A DNA stretch of 35,304 nt. Origin: an uncultured Fidelibacterota bacterium. Lineage in GTDB: Bacteria > Fidelibacterota > Marinisomatia > Marinisomatales > UBA1611. The position numbers and the translations under genes were made by a program. The notes below the pieces were generated by a model. The model worked only from the letters and a program-made list of their open reading frames with translations, searched no databases and was not told the DNA's origin. The DNA is taken from the NCBI GenBank assembly GCA_902559415.1, contig CACEHW010000007.1, positions 1 through 35,304 on the forward strand, given 5' to 3'. This document shows positions 7,033-34,922 of this stretch, piece by piece (positions within the stretch are counted from its first letter, which is position 1; every line of letters begins with the position of its first letter).

Positions 7033-8205
7033 ATGAAACTTATAGGTCCAGATTTTTATAATATTTCAGATTTATTAACTGAAGAAGAACTATTTATTCA
7101 AAAAACAGCACATGAATTCGTTTCAAATGAATTCAAACCAGTTATAAATGAACATTTTGAAAAAGGTACTTTCCCTTTAGAAATTGCGACAAAACTTGGT
7201 GAATTAGGTTTTATGGGATCAGCTTTACCTGAAGAAAGCGGAGGGGCAGGAGTTAGTAATGTTGCCTATGGTTTAATTTTACATGAACTTGAAAGAGGTG
7301 ACTCAGGATTACGTTCTTTCGCTAGCGTTCAAGGATCATTAGTTATGTATCCTATTCATGCATACGGATCGAAAGAACAAAAAGAAAAGTGGCTACCAGG
7401 GCTTGGAGCGGGTAGCCTAATTGGATGTTTTGGATTAACTGAATCAAATTTTGGCTCCAACCCTGGTGGTATGGTAACTACTGCAAAAAAAGATGGCGAT
7501 GACTGGATTATTAATGGATCAAAAATGTGGATCACTAATGGAAGTTTAGCGGATGTTGCACTTGTTTGGGCAAAAGATGAATCAGGAGTTATTAGAGGGT
7601 TTTTACTTGAAAAGGGAATGGATGGTTTTACATCAAATGATATTCATGGGAAATTGAGTTTGAGGGCCTCTGTAACATCAGAACTCTCAATGGTAAATGT
7701 AAGAGTACCAGATAGTTCAAGACTACCAAATATTGAAGGTCTCAAAGGACCTCTTTCATGTTTAACACAGGCTAGATATGGTATAGCTTGGGGTATGGTT
7801 GGTGCAGCGGTTGATTGTTATCAGACCGCCTTAGATTATTCATTAGAAAGAAAGCAATTCAGTAAGCCAATTGCTGGGTATCAATTAACGCAAGCTAAAT
7901 TTGCCGAAATGATCACTCAAATTACTATGGCTCAGTTAACTGTTTATCAATTAGGTAGATTAAAAGATGATAATAAAATGAGATTTGATCAAGTTTCTTT
8001 AGCAAAAAGGAATCACTGTAAGATGGCTAGGGATGTTGCTCGAACTTGTCGTGAAATATTAGGTGGTAATGGAATCATGGAGGATTATTCTCCAATGAGG
8101 CATATGACTAATATTGAGACAGTATTTACTTATGAAGGCACCCATGAAATGCATTCATTAATCTTAGGTCAATCAGTTACGGGTATAGCGGCTTATGATT
8201 CTTAA
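7033..8205 (+). CDS. Acyl-CoA dehydrogenase, glutaryl-CoA dehydrogenase-like
   Basis: FGLTESNFGSNPGGM, WIINGSKMWITNG, RKQFSKPIAGYQLTQAKFAEM, REILGGNGI, YEGTHEMHSLILGQ; AAGGA-like RBS upstream. Confidence 0.92.
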   Translation: MKLIGPDFYNISDLLTEEELFIQKTAHEFVSNEFKPVINEHFEKGTFPLEIATKLGELGFMGSALPEESGGAGVSNVAYGLILHELERGDSGLRSFASVQGSLVMYPIHAYGSKEQKEKWLPGLGAGSLIGCFGLTESNFGSNPGGMVTTAKKDGDDWIINGSKMWITNGSLADVALVWAKDESGVIRGFLLEKGMDGFTSNDIHGKLSLRASVTSELSMVNVRVPDSSRLPNIEGLKGPLSCLTQARYGIAWGMVGAAVDCYQTALDYSLERKQFSKPIAGYQLTQAKFAEMITQITMAQLTVYQLGRLKDDNKMRFDQVSLAKRNHCKMARDVARTCREILGGNGIMEDYSPMRHMTNIETVFTYEGTHEMHSLILGQSVTGIAAYDS

Positions 8206-8240
8206 GAGATAATTTAAAAATTATCTCTTAGCATTTTTTT
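8203..8240 (+). terminator. Perfect inverted repeat plus T run between convergent genes; intrinsic terminator
   Basis: TAAGAGATAATTT (8203-8215) pairs perfectly with AAATTATCTCTTA (8218-8230), then GCATTTTTTT (T run 8234-8240). The stop codons of both convergent genes (8205 and 8214) lie inside the palindrome. Confidence 0.75.
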
Positions 8241-17502: not shown

Positions 17503-17539
17503 AAAAAACAGCCTCCTGATAAAATCAAGAGGCTGTTTT
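17501..17539 (-). terminator. Intrinsic-terminator hairpin with U8 tract, downstream of the secreted-protein gene and abutting the TonB receptor start
   Basis: On the - strand GAAAACAGCCTC-TTGATTTTATCAG-GAGGCTGTTTTTTTT; arms 17505-17515 and 17529-17539 give 11 perfect pairs, plus 4 more inside the loop. Confidence 0.85.
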
Positions 17540-26764: not shown

Positions 26765-27013
26765 TCAGTTATTTCTGTTAAAAATTTTTACTGCGTGTCG
26801 AGGTTCACCAAAATATATTTTATCTGCTACCTGAGCTACGTTTGCCACTATGATTAAATAAGCCCAGGTTGGTATTGGTACACCTGCGCAGCCTTTTATA
26901 ATTACTTTCTTTTTACTAAAAGTAGAAAAGTCCATCAAATTAATTTTTTCCCTAAAAGATTTTTCTTTTATAATGCCTTCATCTAAAAAATCTTCTAATA
27001 ATATTGTTTCCAT
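26765..27013 (-). CDS. DUF2480-like small protein
   Basis: VIIKGCAGVPIPTWAYLIIVANVAQVADKIYFGEPRHAVKIF pattern; co-directional with the suf genes. Confidence 0.6.
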   Translation of the reverse strand: METILLEDFLDEGIIKEKSFREKINLMDFSTFSKKKVIIKGCAGVPIPTWAYLIIVANVAQVADKIYFGEPRHAVKIFNRNN

Positions 27014-27014
27014 T

Positions 27015-28232
27015 TTAAAAGTAGCTAATTGTTGAATTGATTGAATCTACTAATTTATCAATATCAGAAAAATCATTATAGATGTAAAAGCTAACCCGGG
27101 CAGTAGATGTTTCATTCAGAGTTTTTAAAAGAGGTTGCGCACAATGATGTCCAACTCGCAGACATATGTTGTCTTCGTTTAAGAATTGAGAAAGGTCTTG
27201 AGGGTGTATGCCCTTTATATTAAAGCTTATTACTCCACCTCTTTTTTCGGGGGTCCCATAAATCTTAATATTGGGGATCTCTTGAAGCTTTTTTAGTGCA
27301 TACGATGTTAATTTTTTTTCATAATTATAAACATTTTCCATGCCAATATTTGAAAGGTATTTTATAGCCTCACCCATTCCGATTGCTTGGACATAATTTG
27401 GCGTTCCAGCCTCAAATTTATAAGGGACTTCATTCCAGGTAGATGTTTCTAGAGTTACTTTTTCAATCATCTCACCACCACTTAAAAATGGATCTAATTC
27501 ATTGAGCAAATCCATCTTGCCCCATAGAACGCCAACGCCTGTAGGACCCAACATTTTATGACCTGAAAAAGCCAAAAAGTCACACTCTAGATCTTGAACA
27601 TCAACAGGCATATGTGATACACTTTGAGCTCCATCAATAATGTAGACCGCGCCTATAGATTTTGCCATTTTTGCAATTTTTTTGATGGGATTAATTGTCC
27701 CAAGTACATTAGACATATGAGTAATGGAAACAATCTTTGTTCTATCTGTAAAATATCTCCTGCTGTTTTCTAAATCTATATCTCCTGATTTTGTTAGGGG
27801 AAGATATTTTAATTTTATACCAATTCTTTTTGATAGTTGTTGCCATGGTACGATATTGGCATGATGCTCCATATGGCTAATCAGTATCTCATCATCTTTT
27901 TCCAACCTAGATTCAAGAGAATAAGAAAGTAAGTTCATTGACGCAGTCGTTCCACTGGTAAAAATCACTTCTTTGGAAGAGGGTGCATTAATGAATTGAG
28001 ATACTGTTTTCCTTGATGATTCGTATAGCTCTGTAGATCTTGACCCTAAATCATAAAGTGCTCTGTGCACATTTGCATTAGAATGCTCATAGACTTTTTT
28101 TATTGTATCTAAAACAACTTTAGGCTTTTGAGAAGTAGAAGCGCTATCAAGGTAGACTAGGCTTTTATCATTAAAAATTGGAAAATCTGTTTTATCAATT
28201 AAATGAGACATTGAGTTTTTAAAACATTCCAA
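27015..28232 (-). CDS. sufS: Cysteine desulfurase SufS (start may be the internal ATG at 28211)
   Basis: YLDSASTSQKP, ISHMEHHANIVPWQQL, DFLAFSGHKMLGPTGVGVLWG, LRVGHHCAQPL. Confidence 0.95.
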   Translation of the reverse strand: MECFKNSMSHLIDKTDFPIFNDKSLVYLDSASTSQKPKVVLDTIKKVYEHSNANVHRALYDLGSRSTELYESSRKTVSQFINAPSSKEVIFTSGTTASMNLLSYSLESRLEKDDEILISHMEHHANIVPWQQLSKRIGIKLKYLPLTKSGDIDLENSRRYFTDRTKIVSITHMSNVLGTINPIKKIAKMAKSIGAVYIIDGAQSVSHMPVDVQDLECDFLAFSGHKMLGPTGVGVLWGKMDLLNELDPFLSGGEMIEKVTLETSTWNEVPYKFEAGTPNYVQAIGMGEAIKYLSNIGMENVYNYEKKLTSYALKKLQEIPNIKIYGTPEKRGGVISFNIKGIHPQDLSQFLNEDNICLRVGHHCAQPLLKTLNETSTARVSFYIYNDFSDIDKLVDSINSTISYF

Positions 28233-28761
28233 GTTCTAATTGAGCAGCTTCTGACATCATTGCTTGGTTCCATTGTGGTTCCCAAACAAGTTCAACTTTT
28301 ACACTCTGGACATTATTTATTGCGCCTACTTTTCTTTCAACCTCATCAGCAATAACAGGCCCCATACCACACCCTGGCGCTGTTAATGTCATCATAATTG
28401 TAACATTTTTTTCTCCATCTTTTGTGTCTTGAATACTTAAATCATATATCAACCCTAACTCAACTATATTGACTGGTATTTCAGGATCATAGCAAGTTTT
28501 TAATTGATCCCATACTAACTGCTCTGAGAAATCTGAATTAGATTTGTAGGTTTGTTTTTCTTCAATTTTTAATCCTAATGCGTCAGCATTCTCGGCACTA
28601 ATTTGGGCCATGTTACCATTTATTATTACGGTGTGATTTCCGCCTAGAGATTGTGTTATTTGAACTAAGTTTCCTTCAGCAAGAGTAACTCTGTCTCCAG
28701 AGGGAACCATATTCGCCTCTACATCTCTTAAAAGTCTTATTCTCTGATCATTATTATTCAT
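28219..28761 (-). CDS. sufT: Fe-S assembly protein SufT (DUF59 with N-terminal extension)
   Basis: RDVEANMVPSGDRVTLAEGNLVQITQSLGGNHTVIINGNMAQI N-terminus; CYDPEIPVNIVELGLIYDL...LTAPGCGMGPVIADEV DUF59 core. Confidence 0.88.
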   Translation of the reverse strand: MNNNDQRIRLLRDVEANMVPSGDRVTLAEGNLVQITQSLGGNHTVIINGNMAQISAENADALGLKIEEKQTYKSNSDFSEQLVWDQLKTCYDPEIPVNIVELGLIYDLSIQDTKDGEKNVTIMMTLTAPGCGMGPVIADEVERKVGAINNVQSVKVELVWEPQWNQAMMSEAAQLELGMF

Positions 28762-29162
28762 ATGCTCATTTCATGAATTTTACTAACTGCACTTGCAAAG
28801 CCGTTGGTTCTTTGTACACTAATTAATCCTGATAATCCAACTTTATTTAGTATATCTGCGTGATTAACAGATTGAATATCTTTTGATTTATGACCACTAT
28901 AAATTTTACAAAGTAAAGACAATAACCCTTTTACAATCAGTGCATCAGAATCACATTTAAAAAAATATTTTTCACCTTGTTTTTTACTAACAACCCAGGC
29001 CTGAGATGTACATCCAGACACTTTAGATTTATCATTTCTATCACTTTCTGGTATACCACTAGATTCTTTAGCAATATCCATTAATTGTGAGAATTTATCT
29101 TTTGGATCATCAAAAATAGAAAATAGGTCTTCTATTTCAGTTAGTGTGTGCTTAATACTCAT
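28758..29162 (-). CDS. sufE: Sulfur acceptor SufE
   Basis: KVSGCTSQAWVV active-site Cys motif; KGLLSLLCKIYSG; suf context. Confidence 0.92.
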   Translation of the reverse strand: MSIKHTLTEIEDLFSIFDDPKDKFSQLMDIAKESSGIPESDRNDKSKVSGCTSQAWVVSKKQGEKYFFKCDSDALIVKGLLSLLCKIYSGHKSKDIQSVNHADILNKVGLSGLISVQRTNGFASAVSKIHEMSI

Positions 29163-29164
29163 TA

Positions 29165-30424
29165 TTAATTATTCTTGATCAGCCAGTTGTCAAATTTATT
29201 AAAGAGGTAATCTCTTAAATCTTTATTTTCTATTTCTTCCATTAACTCAATCACAAATCCTCGAATAAGAAGAGAGGAGGCACTCTCACGATCTAAACCA
29301 CGAGATTGCATATAAAAAAGTGCTTCATTATCTAATGCTCCGGTTGTTGAGCCATGTGCACATTTAACATCATCTGCGTATATCTCTAACTGAGGATTTG
29401 AATTCATTGTAGCTTTGTCTGATAGAAGTAAATTCTTATTTGATTGTTTTGAATTAGTTTTTTGAGAGTCTTCTCTGACAATAGTCCGGCCATTGAAAAC
29501 TCCAGAAGATTTATTATTGAGCACGGATTTAAAATTTTGAGAACTCGTACAATTTGGCATAATGTGATCAGTTGTTATGTATGTCGCTGACTGTTGATCA
29601 TCATCTAAAATAGTCAGTCCAGATAGAAAACAATTAGAGTTGGTACCCTTTAAAGAATTATATATATCTGATCTTTGTAGCGCTCCGCTATCTACAAATT
29701 GAAAATATTTATAATTTGAATTTTCGCTTTGCTCAATATATGAACTCGAGATATTTATGGTTTTATTTGCATTTGAAAAAATCCGTAAATGATTCAATGA
29801 TGCATTTTCTTTTACAGAAGCAAAAACACAATTATTTTGAAAAAATGATGAAGTCTCGCTTGCATATTGTTCGATCACTGTTGCCGAGCTAGATCTGCTA
29901 ATATCAATATTGACCTGTGGACTTATAATTAAATTTTCACTTCCTGAACAAATGAAAAGTATGTGGATCGGCTTATCAATATCTGTATCAGGATCAATAA
30001 TAAATGACATTCCACTGTCGCATAAAGATGTATTAAGTAAATCAAATGGAGTGTCTTTTTTATCTTTTTGTCTCCAGTCGTTTTGTTCAAGGTATTCATG
30101 ATTAGTTAAAACTCTTAATTCTTTTGGAGCATCTGATAGATGCTCTACATAATGACCATTTATGATTACCAATGTGTGAGTATTTTTAATTTTATATTTA
30201 GAAAAATCAATATTTTCAAAAGCATCATTAGCCTCTGATATTCTAAAATTATTTTTATTTAAGAAAGAAAGATCAGTGTGTCTCCAATCTTCCCATTTTT
30301 TTGTAGGCAGGCCTATATCTAAAAATTTTGAGAAAGCTTTTTGCCTGCTATTGTTTAACCTTGAAGGGAAGTATTTGCGAGAAATGATCTTATTAAACTC
30401 ATTTTGGTAGTCGTTTACGTTCAT
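29165..30424 (-). CDS. sufD: SufD
   Basis: PTKKWEDWRHTDLSFL; C-terminal ADDVKCAHGSTTGALDNEALFYMQSRGLDRESASSLLIRGF. Confidence 0.95.
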   Translation of the reverse strand: MNVNDYQNEFNKIISRKYFPSRLNNSRQKAFSKFLDIGLPTKKWEDWRHTDLSFLNKNNFRISEANDAFENIDFSKYKIKNTHTLVIINGHYVEHLSDAPKELRVLTNHEYLEQNDWRQKDKKDTPFDLLNTSLCDSGMSFIIDPDTDIDKPIHILFICSGSENLIISPQVNIDISRSSSATVIEQYASETSSFFQNNCVFASVKENASLNHLRIFSNANKTINISSSYIEQSENSNYKYFQFVDSGALQRSDIYNSLKGTNSNCFLSGLTILDDDQQSATYITTDHIMPNCTSSQNFKSVLNNKSSGVFNGRTIVREDSQKTNSKQSNKNLLLSDKATMNSNPQLEIYADDVKCAHGSTTGALDNEALFYMQSRGLDRESASSLLIRGFVIELMEEIENKDLRDYLFNKFDNWLIKNN

Positions 30425-31161
30425 GATTCAAGCCAGCTGTAACCTTTTTCTTCTAACTCTAGGGCAAGTTCTTTTCCGCCTGATTTAACAATTTTACCAT
30501 CAATAAGAACATGAACGACATCAGGTTCAATATACTTTAATAATCTTTGATAATGAGTTATAACTAAAAAGCTTCTTGAGTTATTTTTATATTTATTTAT
30601 CCCTCTTGATATAATCTTCAATGCATCAATATCAAGACCAGAATCTGTTTCATCCATAATTGCAAGTTCAGGCTCTAGGCATAGGAGTTGCAGCATTTCA
30701 TTTCTCTTTTTTTCTCCGCCTGAAAAGCCTTCATTAACAGCCCTCTTTAAATATTTGGCATCCATTTCAACTTCTTTTAATTTTGATTTTACAAACTTTA
30801 AGAAAGTTGCGGCATCATACTCTTTTTCACCTCTGTATTTTTTTTTAGCGTTCACTGCTGCCCTTAAAAAATAGGTGTTATTTACACCTGGAATAACGGT
30901 AGGATATTGAAAGGACATAAAAATACCAGCTAGAGCTCTTTCATTTGGTTCCATTTCAAGAATTGACTCATCTTTGAATGTGATATCACCTTTTGTCACG
31001 TTATAGTTTTCTCTTCCTGTAATCGCGTTAGAGAGTGTACTTTTTCCTGAACCGTTTAATCCCATAATAGCATGCATTTCACCAGCTTTTATTTTTAGAT
31101 CTATACCGCTTAATATTTCTTTATTTTCTACTTCTACGTGAAGATTATTTATCTCTAGCAT
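30421..31161 (-). CDS. sufC: SufC ATPase
   Basis: Walker A GLNGSGKST, signature EGFSGGEKKRNEMLQLLCLEPELAIMDETDSGLDIDAL. Confidence 0.97.
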   Translation of the reverse strand: MLEINNLHVEVENKEILSGIDLKIKAGEMHAIMGLNGSGKSTLSNAITGRENYNVTKGDITFKDESILEMEPNERALAGIFMSFQYPTVIPGVNNTYFLRAAVNAKKKYRGEKEYDAATFLKFVKSKLKEVEMDAKYLKRAVNEGFSGGEKKRNEMLQLLCLEPELAIMDETDSGLDIDALKIISRGINKYKNNSRSFLVITHYQRLLKYIEPDVVHVLIDGKIVKSGGKELALELEEKGYSWLES

Positions 31162-31175
31162 ATTTCACCTTGTAA

Positions 31176-32624
31176 TTATCCAACGCTTCCTTCTAAGCTT
31201 ACTTCCATTAGTTTTGTGGCTTCCATAGCAAACTCCATTGGTAGTTCATTAAACACCTCTTTACAAAAACCATTAACAATCATTGATACCGCATCTTCAG
31301 TATCTATGCCTCTTTGATTACAATAGAATAATTGATCTTCTCCAATTTTTGATGTTGAAGCTTCGTGCTCCATTGTCGCGGATTGATTTCTTACATCTAT
31401 GTAAGGAAAAGTGTGAGCACCGCAACGATCCCCGATTAAAATAGAGTCACATTGTGAGAAATTTCTCGCATTATCTGCGCTTTTCATAATTTTAACTTCA
31501 CCTCGGTATGTCTGTTGCCCTTTTCCTGCTGAGATTCCTTTAGATATAATTGTGCTTTTTGTGTTTTTTCCAATGTGAATCATTTTTGTACCCGTATCTG
31601 CTTGTTGGAGGTTGTTTGTTAATGCAACAGAGTAAAACTCTCCAACAGAATCATCTCCCTTTAAAATGCAGCTAGGGTATTTCCATGTAACAGCTGAGCC
31701 TGTTTCTACTTGTGTCCAAGATATTCTAGAGTTTTGGCCAGCACATAATCCTCGTTTTGTAACAAAATTGTAAATTCCACCTGCTCCTGTTTTTGGATTC
31801 CCAGGAAACCAATTTTGGACAGTAGAATATTTTATGGTAGCATTATCAAGTGCTACTAATTCTACAACAGCCGCATGCAGTTGGTTTTCATCACGCATGG
31901 GCGCGGTACACCCCTCAAGATAGCTTACAGAACTATTCTCTTCAGCAATAATTAGTGTTCGTTCAAATTGGCCTGTTTTTGCTTCATTAATTCTAAAATA
32001 TGTTGATAATTCCATCGGGCATTTAACACCTTTAGGAATGAAAACAAAAGAGCCATCTGTAAAAACAGCAGAATTCAAACAAGCAAAGTAATTATCAGTA
32101 TAAGGAATAACACTACCTAAGTATTTTTTGACAATCTCTGGGTAGTCAATTGCTGCTTCCGAAAAACTACAAAAAATCACCCCATGACTTTTTAATTCTT
32201 CTCTAAAAGTGGTCGCAACTGAAACACTATCAAACACAGCATCAACGGCAATCCCATTCATCATCTTTTGTTCATCCAGTGGGATACCTAATTTATTATA
32301 AGTCTTGAGTAACTCTGGATCTAGTTCATCTAAGCTTTTTAATTCTTTTTTCTTAGGAGCAGAGTAATAGCTTATATCCTGATAGTCAATCTTATCATAG
32401 TTAACATTTTGCCAGTCAGGTTCTTTCATCTTTAGCCATTTTCTGTATGCTTTTAAGCGCCATTCTAGTAACCAAGAAGGTTCTTTTTTCTTCTTTGAGA
32501 TGAAATGTATTGTCTCTTCGCTAATTCCAGGAGCGAGTGTATCTGATTCTATTTCAGTAATAAACCCGTATTTGTATTCTTCTTTAACGCGCTGATCTAT
32601 TACACTATTTTTATTATTGTCCAT
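31176..32624 (-). CDS. sufB: SufB
   Basis: [33 protein letters not shown]-like, [44 protein letters not shown]. Confidence 0.97.
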
Positions 32625-32648: not shown

Positions 32649-33026
32649 TTAGGCTGAAAAAGAAGTACCGCAGCCACAAGTTCTTTCAGCATTTGGATTT
32701 TCAATTTTAAAACCCCCGTTAAGCATGTCATCTGAATAATCAATGGTTATATTTTTTAAATAGAGCCAGCTTTTCAGATCACAAATCACTTTTAATCCAT
32801 TCTGCTCAAAAACTTTATCATAAGTGTTCTGCTTTTCATCAAAATCCATTTTATAGTTCATGCCTGAACAGCCACCACTATCAACGGACATTCTAAGATA
32901 GTATCCGTTCTTTCCCTCAGAAGACATAACAGCTTTCAACCTGGTCACTGCTTTTTTTGATACAAAGATCTGAGCATCTTTAAATTCATTTTGAGCTTGC
33001 TCGATTGTTGATTGTTCTTTTTTCAT
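32649..33026 (-). CDS. sufA: A-type Fe-S carrier (SufA/ErpA/IscA family)
   Basis: YLRMSVDSGGCSGMNYKMDFD and C-terminal ERTCGCGTSF. The track starts at 33071; internal ATG 33026 avoids the 41-nt overlap with the upstream gene. Confidence 0.9.
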   Translation of the reverse strand: MKKEQSTIEQAQNEFKDAQIFVSKKAVTRLKAVMSSEGKNGYYLRMSVDSGGCSGMNYKMDFDEKQNTYDKVFEQNGLKVICDLKSWLYLKNITIDYSDDMLNGGFKIENPNAERTCGCGTSFSA

Positions 33027-33030
33027 GCGT

Positions 33031-33393
33031 TTATTCCCATGTTGTTTCAAGTTTTTCTTGTTGGGTTTCATTTATTTCTTCATCAAATCCTAATTTTTCA
33101 CGCGCTTCTTGAGTCATCATCTCAGGTTTCCATGGAGGGTCAAATGTGACCTCAACACTCACATCCTTGATCTCAGGCATAAGAGCCACCTTAGTTTTGA
33201 TGTCTTCAGCCATATGTTGGCCCATTGTACAGCCCGGTGTAGTGAGAGACATTAAGACCTCTACATCTGATTTTTCTTTGTCATATTCTTTGATGCTGAT
33301 ATTATAAATTAAACCCAAGTTCCAAAGATCAATTGGGATCTCAGGGTCATAGCACTGCTTTAAAATATCAATTATTTTATCTTTTAATTTCAT
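33031..33393 (-). CDS. MIP18/DUF59 Fe-S assembly protein (second DUF59 in the operon)
   Basis: CYDPEIPIDLWNLGLIYNISI...LTTPGCTMGQHMAEDI...VEVTFDPPWKPEMM. Confidence 0.9.
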   Translation of the reverse strand: MKLKDKIIDILKQCYDPEIPIDLWNLGLIYNISIKEYDKEKSDVEVLMSLTTPGCTMGQHMAEDIKTKVALMPEIKDVSVEVTFDPPWKPEMMTQEAREKLGFDEEINETQQEKLETTWE

Positions 33394-33785
33394 TGTGAAA
33401 TATCCGCTATTGTTAGGTTGTCAAAAAGGTTTCTTATAGAGTCATTAATTTTGTTAATGGGGGTGCGAATATTGCAGCTATTTAGATGGTCACATCCAGC
33501 TTCAAAATAACAGTCCATAATAGCTGTAGGACCCTCTAAAATTTCAAAAAAATGATTTAGTGTCGTACTCTCTATTTTTTTTGATGCTTTATATCCACCA
33601 TTTGGTCCTTTGAAAGATTCAATTATATCTGAGCTGGCTAGTTTTTGGAGTGTCTTCGCTAAAATTTCTTTAGGTATTCCATAAGAAGATGCGATCTCAG
33701 ATACTGGAACGAGTTTTTCCTTGTTTTCTTGGAGGTGCCTCATAGCAATGAGAGCATATTCTACTTTTTTAGTAATCTTTAACAT
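33390..33785 (-). CDS. Rrf2-family Fe-S-sensing transcriptional regulator
   Basis: KKVEYALIAMRHL, SYGIPKEILAKTLQKLASSDIIESFKGPNGGY; CYFEAGCDHLNSC is an exact CX5CX5C. Track start 33833 (MFGFIYILAIYF...) replaced by MLKITKK at 33785, the family-typical start. Confidence 0.92.
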   Translation of the reverse strand: MLKITKKVEYALIAMRHLQENKEKLVPVSEIASSYGIPKEILAKTLQKLASSDIIESFKGPNGGYKASKKIESTTLNHFFEILEGPTAIMDCYFEAGCDHLNSCNIRTPINKINDSIRNLFDNLTIADISQ

Positions 33786-33831
33786 TTTTTTGGACTGGAA
33801 GTATATAGCCAGAATGTAAATAAAACCAAAC

Positions 33832-33862
33832 ATTATATACGACTAATTTTGTCGGATATAAT
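33832..33862. promoter_or_regulatory. 31-nt near-perfect inverted repeat; candidate Rrf2/IscR-type operator
   Basis: ATTATATACGAC-TAATTTT-GTCGGATATAAT: 12-nt arms with one mismatch, 7-nt spacer, 46 nt upstream of the Rrf2 start. Confidence 0.7.
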
Positions 33863-33881: not shown

Positions 33882-34922
33882 TTATAGATTAGCTATGACA
33901 GGCTTGTCTTTTGCACTAATAATTTCTCCAATAACTTTTGCTTTATTACCAAAATCATTTAAAAATGCCTCGGCATCTTTTGGTGGTAATGTTATCAGAA
34001 GTCCTCCAGAAGTTTGCGCATCGCATATAATTAACTTTTCATTGTACGATAGTTCAGAACTAAAATTTGTATACTTTTCAGCATGTTCAAGATTGCGTTT
34101 TGATCCACCCGGCATTATCCCTTCTTCTATTAAGTCCAATGTTCCTGGCAACAAATCAATCTGGTTAAAATAAATTTTCGCAGATACTTTACTAGATTTG
34201 CAAATTTCAATTAGGTGCCCAACTAGCCCAAATCCGGTGATATCTGTAACCGCGTTTGGAGTAAATTTTTGTGCAACTTCAGAAGCTTTTTTGTTTAAGT
34301 TTTTCATAGTCTCTATAGCGGAAGATATAATTTTAGAAGAGGCTTTTTCTTTTTTAATTGCTGTTGATATAATTCCTGTACCAATAGGTTTCGTGAGAAT
34401 TATTTTGTCGCCTTCTTTAGCACCTGCATTCGTCCAAATATTTTTTTCAATTACCTCTCCCGTTACAACTAAGCCGTATTTTGGTTCATTATCATCTATT
34501 GAATGTCCACCGACTATTGGTATCCCTGCTTCTGCTGCCTTGTCTGCTCCACCTTGCATAATCTCAGATAATATTTCATTTGGAAGCTTCTGGATAGGGA
34601 ATCCAACTATATTTAAAGCAAATAAAGGTCGGCCACCCATAGCATAAATATCCGATAGAGAATTTGCTGCAGATATTTGTCCAAATGTATATGGATCATC
34701 AACAATTGGTGTGAAAAAATCAACAGTTTGGAGAATGATCTTTCCATCGCTAAGGCGTACGACAGCTGCATCATCCGTACTAGTATAGTCCGTGATAACA
34801 GAGTTGTTTGTGCTCATCTTTACATTACCCAGAACCTGGGCTAGGTCTTCAGGACCAATTTTACAAGCTCAGCCAGCACCATGGCTAAACGTAGTTAGCC
34901 TGATTTTTTCTCGACCTTTCAT
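33882..34922 (-). CDS. selD: Selenide, water dikinase SelD, probable selenoprotein with in-frame UGA at 34869-34871
   Basis: The track begins at internal Met 34817. Extending upstream in the same frame gives MKGREKIRLTTFSHGAG(UGA)ACKIGPEDLAQVLGNVKMSTNNSVITDYTSTDDAAVV; SHGAG-[C/U]-xCKI is the conserved SelD catalytic region. An in-frame TAA at 34932-34934 limits the ORF upstream. Confidence 0.92.
34827..34841 (-). promoter_or_regulatory. Candidate bacterial SECIS hairpin of selD
   Basis: RNA G-CCCAG-GUU-CUGGG-U: 5 Watson-Crick pairs plus one G-U, loop starting with G; 33 nt between UGA and loop. A second hairpin GGUC-CUGAA-GACC (34844-34856) lies between. Confidence 0.5.

Follow-up and report, generated by a model that had tools for sequence, protein, structure and literature searches.

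Upstream of the suf operon in the window (the whole analysed stretch of 35,304 nt), which is headed by a gene for an Rrf2-family regulator, lies a long inverted repeat. This raises the questions of whether the repeat is an operator for that regulator, in which direction the regulator would act on the operon, and how it is related to IscR.

A palindromic site at the head of the suf operon

Direct inspection of the window sequence found ATTATATACGACTAATTTTGTCGGATATAAT at exactly 33832-33862, a palindrome of 31 nt whose two 12-nt arms mismatch at a single pair and enclose a 7-nt centre, as the initial annotation had described. Its inner 25 nt on the minus strand, ATATCCGACAAAATTAGTCGTATAT, agree at exactly 21/25 positions with the E. 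coli IscR type-1 consensus as published, ATASYYGACTRWWWYAGTCRRSTAT (PMC3899308), a sequence-level match that is the same on either strand; the annotation had given this consensus correctly and estimated the agreement at about 21. The repeat, called O1 below, and the genes downstream of it are as follows.

33832-33862, minus strand: operator O1, 31-nt IscR type-1-like palindrome with a GAC-N7-GTC core, assigned from sequence, consensus match, matrix score and conservation in relatives
33390-33785, minus strand: Rrf2-family regulator of 131 aa, start MLKITKK taken from orthologs (PF02082 and TIGR00738 above cut-off)
33031-33393, minus strand: SufT/DUF59-like protein (PF01883)
32649-33071, minus strand: SufA/ErpA-type carrier, start codon uncertain (TIGR00049 above cut-off)
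31176-32624, minus strand: sufB (NF008773 and TIGR01980 above cut-off)
30421-31161, minus strand: sufC (TIGR01978 above cut-off)
29165-30424, minus strand: sufD (TIGR01981 above cut-off)
28758-29162, minus strand: sufE (PF02657)
28219-28761, minus strand: long sufT (TIGR03406 above cut-off)
27015-28232, minus strand: sufS, cysteine desulfurase (TIGR01979 above cut-off)
26765-27013, minus strand: DUF2480 protein (PF10652), end of the conserved suf cluster, which is the same in relatives

The runner-up place in the window matched the type-1 consensus at 19/25 positions, and 1 Mb of Markov-1 sequence of window composition contained five matches at 20/25 and none at 21/25. With a matrix built from the sites of relatives, from which the window's genus was excluded, O1 scored 37.2 bits, the maximum in 5 Mb of random sequence being 15.2 bits. 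Because the window contains a handful of further 12-bp inverted repeats, a palindrome is not rare in itself, and it is the motif that is the rare part. O1 was the sole such site in the assembly of 1.2 Mb, which has a completeness of about 65%. Two sequence-model matches elsewhere in this genome were partial, namely G000:C14:8104, which was dropped with a matrix score below 8 bits, and C51:1941, with an E value of 1.3.

The centre of O1 lies 62 nt upstream of the regulator start codon, since the start was taken as MLKITKK (33785); a start at 33833, which would run into the operator, was rejected, the corresponding upstream ATG being out of frame in locus L003. On the upstream side, the stop codon of selD lies 20 bp from O1 on the same strand. 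This selenophosphate synthetase gene (33882-34922, minus strand), which immediately precedes the suf operon in many relatives as well, has an in-frame TGA at 34869-34871 that likely encodes selenocysteine. The IscU/SufU-type scaffold PF01592 was found nowhere in the window's genome and in only one other genome of the family, so SUF is probably the sole assembly system, and the control of SUF rather than ISC genes that had been suggested at first presupposes a choice that this lineage does not have.

Conservation of the site and its co-occurrence with the regulator

Across Neomarinimicrobiota, the motif TATATACGACTAAATTAGTCGTATWTA, with the core GAC-N7-GTC, precedes suf operons headed by an Rrf2 gene. 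Of 61 relatives, 54 had a match to the regulator at E<=0.001, mostly with strong scores, and the regions upstream of its orthologs had the motif in common at near-constant positions, embedded in upstream DNA of otherwise poor conservation. A total of 51 sites, which are phylogenetically non-independent and come from MAGs of uneven completeness, gave a motif of 32 bits with an invariant GA in the left half-site and an invariant TC in the right one. The initial annotation had made its proposal depend on conservation of the palindrome upstream of orthologous rrf2-suf operons; in the relatives the site is conserved there, and it is kept across families and classes. A scan of the genome and its relatives, of the kind that it had proposed, returned no site but the one at suf in the window's genome and, in the 61 whole genomes of relatives, strong matches that were nearly all at rrf2-suf. 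The palindrome is almost certainly the switch site, as predicted from sequence, of the regulator encoded beside it, and the 32-bit motif provides a means to read regulons in the phylum.

Among 245 genomes of the phylum, 103 had the site (E<=0.001), 134 had the regulator (E<=1e-22) and 100 had both. The site was thus present in 100/134 genomes with the regulator versus 3/111 without it (Fisher p ~2e-34, uncorrected for shared ancestry), and 34 regulator-bearing genomes had no site at this strict threshold. G046 and G056, both near-complete reduced genomes from family f15, keep sufB and have neither regulator nor site. In seven loci (L064-L070), rrf2 is located inside the suf cluster, behind sufS; no site was found upstream of rrf2 in any of the seven, and all seven had a site ahead of sufB (12.0 to 26.9 bits, the weakest within the upper random range), which indicates that the site tracks the operon promoter and not the regulator gene.

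Extra sites in relatives were located upstream of genes whose names, outside suf, were assigned by reading translations, without a family search. They comprised a ferredoxin (L106), a TonB receptor and an iron ABC transporter (L108 and L110), a peroxiredoxin (L134) and cytochrome oxidase subunit I (L112). In two families (L107 and L139) the site preceded an operon of a DUF4395 protein, cysteine synthase, a JAB protein and ThiS/ThiF-like proteins, and in a third family (L135) a set of cysteine synthase, JAB and ThiS-like genes. The operator before these cysteine-synthase operons with JAB and CysO-type ThiS-like genes suggests that the supply of cysteine and that of Fe-S clusters are controlled jointly.

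Promoter layout and the direction of regulation

To describe the promoter, we anchored an alignment on the site centre in the 41 loci with a single upstream site (O1-only loci). Two further elements could be placed in the window.

33827-33830, minus strand: -35-like element TTTG, with TTG at +18 from the operator centre (in 38/41 O1-only loci)
33800-33805, minus strand: -10-like element TATACT, at +42 from the operator centre (TAnnnT in 30/41 O1-only loci)

Transcription is predicted to start near 33793, about +54 from the operator centre, which places O1 upstream of the -35 element with its centre at about -54 from the predicted start. A second site, O2, located 57-60 bp downstream and over the predicted transcription start, accompanies O1 in 16 loci, and such pairs, 57-60 bp apart, flank the promoter in L021, L024, L025, L027, L028, L029, L031 and others. 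The downstream slot alone occurs in 15 loci and covers the predicted start in most of them; in L133 and L146 the site lies at a greater distance from the start codon, so that these two may represent a different arrangement. Between lineages the two slots substitute for each other. We did not find this promoter layout, of a predicted operator with suf, described.

The reading that we favour, and hold to be quite probable, is that the holo-regulator represses its own suf operon through O1 and that repression is released upon Fe-S scarcity. A regulator dimer would occupy both half-sites of GAC-N7-GTC in a cluster-loaded form, probably [4Fe-4S], bound by three Cys and a Glu of the partner subunit. 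The holo-regulator, positioned against the -35 element, would then repress rrf2-suf transcription, the sign being the one that we infer. Under low iron or oxidants, Fe-S clusters would be lost and the regulator would come off the DNA, and SUF, the only assembly system found in the lineage, would be produced until the regulator was reloaded, forming a negative feedback.

The same operator could also work with the opposite sign, the regulator in its apo or holo form activating from O1 and repressing from O2 where O2 is present. O1 adjoins the -35 element at a nearly invariant spacing, a feature typical of activators in contact with RNA polymerase, so that its rigid phasing could reflect an activation role, and there is a precedent in the E. 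coli suf operon, which is activated by apo-IscR (PMC12594620). However, the 15 loci with only the downstream slot, mostly over the predicted start, could only be repressed from it, and sites of the GAC-N7-GTC type serve repression in E. coli, P. aeruginosa and M. xanthus. The interchange of the slots between lineages also speaks against activation: either slot appears to be sufficient, which argues for repression, as activation from a position over the start could scarcely occur. We therefore regard activation from O1 as unlikely. A further scheme, likewise unlikely, would assign one regulator opposite effects at fixed slots, activation at O1 and repression at O2, with lineages keeping one or both, and would have an NsrR-like, non-IscR Rrf2 protein that retained or regained the IscR type-1 operator independently.

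As judged from sequence, the circuit belongs to a known kind and involves another lineage of regulator. A search of the papers covered here for Rrf2 with suf and Marinimicrobia returned no description of it. With this circuit, a largely uncultured phylum gains a testable case of Fe-S homeostasis.

Relationship of the regulator to IscR, NsrR and RisR

The regulator is 93% identical to that of the nearest named locus, by which the contig is assigned to Candidatus Marinimicrobia/Neomarinimicrobiota, and belongs to the Rrf2 superfamily (PF02082, 96.1 bits, cut-off 30; TIGR00738, 91.8 bits, cut-off 73.3). A fold search with its structure model returned the expected Rrf2 structures. Its score was below the cut-offs of the IscR profile TIGR02010 (57.1 bits against 207.55), the NsrR profile PRK11014 (39.9 against 182) and the RirA and CymR profiles. 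The highest-scoring named subfamily was the suf-linked TIGR02944 (suf_reg_Xantho), to which the regulator was not assigned because its 80.3 bits fall below the cut-off of 110.65.

The initial annotation had noted the spacing CX5CX5C in the regulator and taken it as an IscR-type cluster site. The spacing itself is borne out by C92, C98 and C104, with the three Cys present in 71/71 orthologs, but it also occurs in Streptomyces coelicolor NsrR, and at the position of His107, the fourth cluster ligand of IscR, 66 of the 71 orthologs have Arg or Lys (R 57, K 9, L 3, Q 2) and none has His. The residues of the recognition helix with which IscR reads bases are also replaced: Ser40 is Ser in 4/71 orthologs, Glu43 is replaced by Ala in 68 and by Ser in 3, and Gln44 is Lys in 71/71. 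IscR Arg8 is Glu in 69/71, aligned with NsrR Asp8. In NsrR, Asp8 is the fourth ligand of the [4Fe-4S] cluster (PMC5411485). Streptomyces coelicolor NsrR further resembles the window regulator in having CX5CX5C followed by CxxR, Ala 43 and Lys 44, and in the place of its Asp8 the window regulator has an acidic Glu; NsrR differs in its context of NO detoxification, the gene of the window regulator being located amid Fe-S assembly genes. C92, C98, C104 and Glu9 are thus likely the cluster ligands as predicted from these alignments. The predicted structure reached high confidence in the winged helix only; its cluster loop 88-105 had pLDDT <50, so that it decides nothing on the ligands.

These data bear on whether the regulator could be a genuine ortholog of IscR, its [2Fe-2S] cluster being bound by three Cys plus a further IscR-type ligand, in which case the IscR circuit would have moved to suf. 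The type-1-like site, the CX5CX5C spacing and the Rrf2 fold would be expected of such an ortholog, but the profile score and the replaced residues make this very improbable, and in a small tree the IscR proteins of E. coli and T. potens stand apart on a long branch (weak evidence, the branch lengths being extreme). The regulator is, on sequence grounds, a distant cousin of IscR and not IscR. Of the IscR-like autoregulatory circuit proposed at the outset, the conserved type-1-like operator and the autoregulatory arrangement stand, and the identity with IscR does not. In E. coli, the E43A substitution allows apo-IscR to bind type-1 sites (PMC3899308, PMC5411485); given Ala at this position in the window regulator, cluster control of binding must rest elsewhere, for instance, perhaps, on a loop ordered by the cluster, as proposed for NsrR.

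Type-1 sites of E. coli and P. aeruginosa share the operator core, the spacing and the outer ATA/TAT with the window's site, which, like them, lies at the promoter of an operon headed by the regulator gene, and in the 3-kb iscR region of E. coli the top match of the Neomarinimicrobiota matrix was site A (7.8 bits). The inner flank differs, being ATATAC-GAC in the window-family consensus and ATASYY-GAC in IscR type-1 sites, as does the regulator lineage, the window regulator lacking His107, Glu43, Ser40 and Gln44. Unlike IscR of E. coli and P. aeruginosa, the window regulator is predicted to control SUF as the only system found.

The closest described system appears to be RisR of M. xanthus, an Rrf2 protein of group IS6 that is encoded at the head of a suf operon and acts as a holo-repressor, probably with a [4Fe-4S] cluster, at a GAC-N7-GTC site over the suf promoter (PMC9973013). 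The window locus likewise has an Rrf2 gene leading suf and GAC-N7-GTC at the promoter. Compared by description, both regulators have three Cys and no conserved Ser40, Glu43 or Gln44, and both systems have AT-rich operator flanks and an autoregulatory arrangement. RisR differs in also controlling an isc operon, which the window lineage does not have, in its Cys spacing (C92, C102, C108 versus C92, C98, C104) and in its suf site, which overlaps -35 and -10, whereas O1 is just upstream of -35; the window-family flanks TATATAC-GAC...GTC-GTATATA are also unlike those of RisR. IscR, RisR and the window lineage thus differ in recognition residues and probable cluster ligands, while the paired operator GAC-N7-GTC is nearly the same. 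Two questions thereby become testable, namely whether the operator goes back to the ancestor of the Fe-S Rrf2 regulators or was arrived at more than once, and which residues read it.

Two readings of the repeat do without a regulator. As an RNA hairpin, it would be a selD terminator or an attenuator and no protein site; it lies just past the selD stop codon and is foldable (-14.2 kcal/mol, z -2.7). However, pairing was kept in only 77% of cells with compensatory change little above shuffles, the conservation is of letters rather than pairs, and the motif is also seen spanning the start codon and ahead of sufB as well as of cysteine and ferredoxin genes. With neither clear covariation nor a terminator prediction or Rfam match, the hairpin was rejected as highly improbable. 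A chance palindrome in AT-rich DNA, for which the handful of further inverted repeats of 12 bp in the window would speak, is ruled out by the matrix null together with the footprint across families and classes and has a negligible probability.

Other inverted repeats in the window were seen at 8203-8230 and 17507-17537, one perfect and AT-rich and one GC-richer that may be a terminator. Distant Rrf2 relatives of 32-36% identity in Bdellovibrionota and an epsilonproteobacterial MAG (L039-L043) have a different upstream repeat, which in L040 and L043 is of the type AAATAGG...CCTATTT. One contig in the genome of another family (G144:C31, L128) carries suf genes 93-98% identical to those of the window, and its placement there is probably a binning error.
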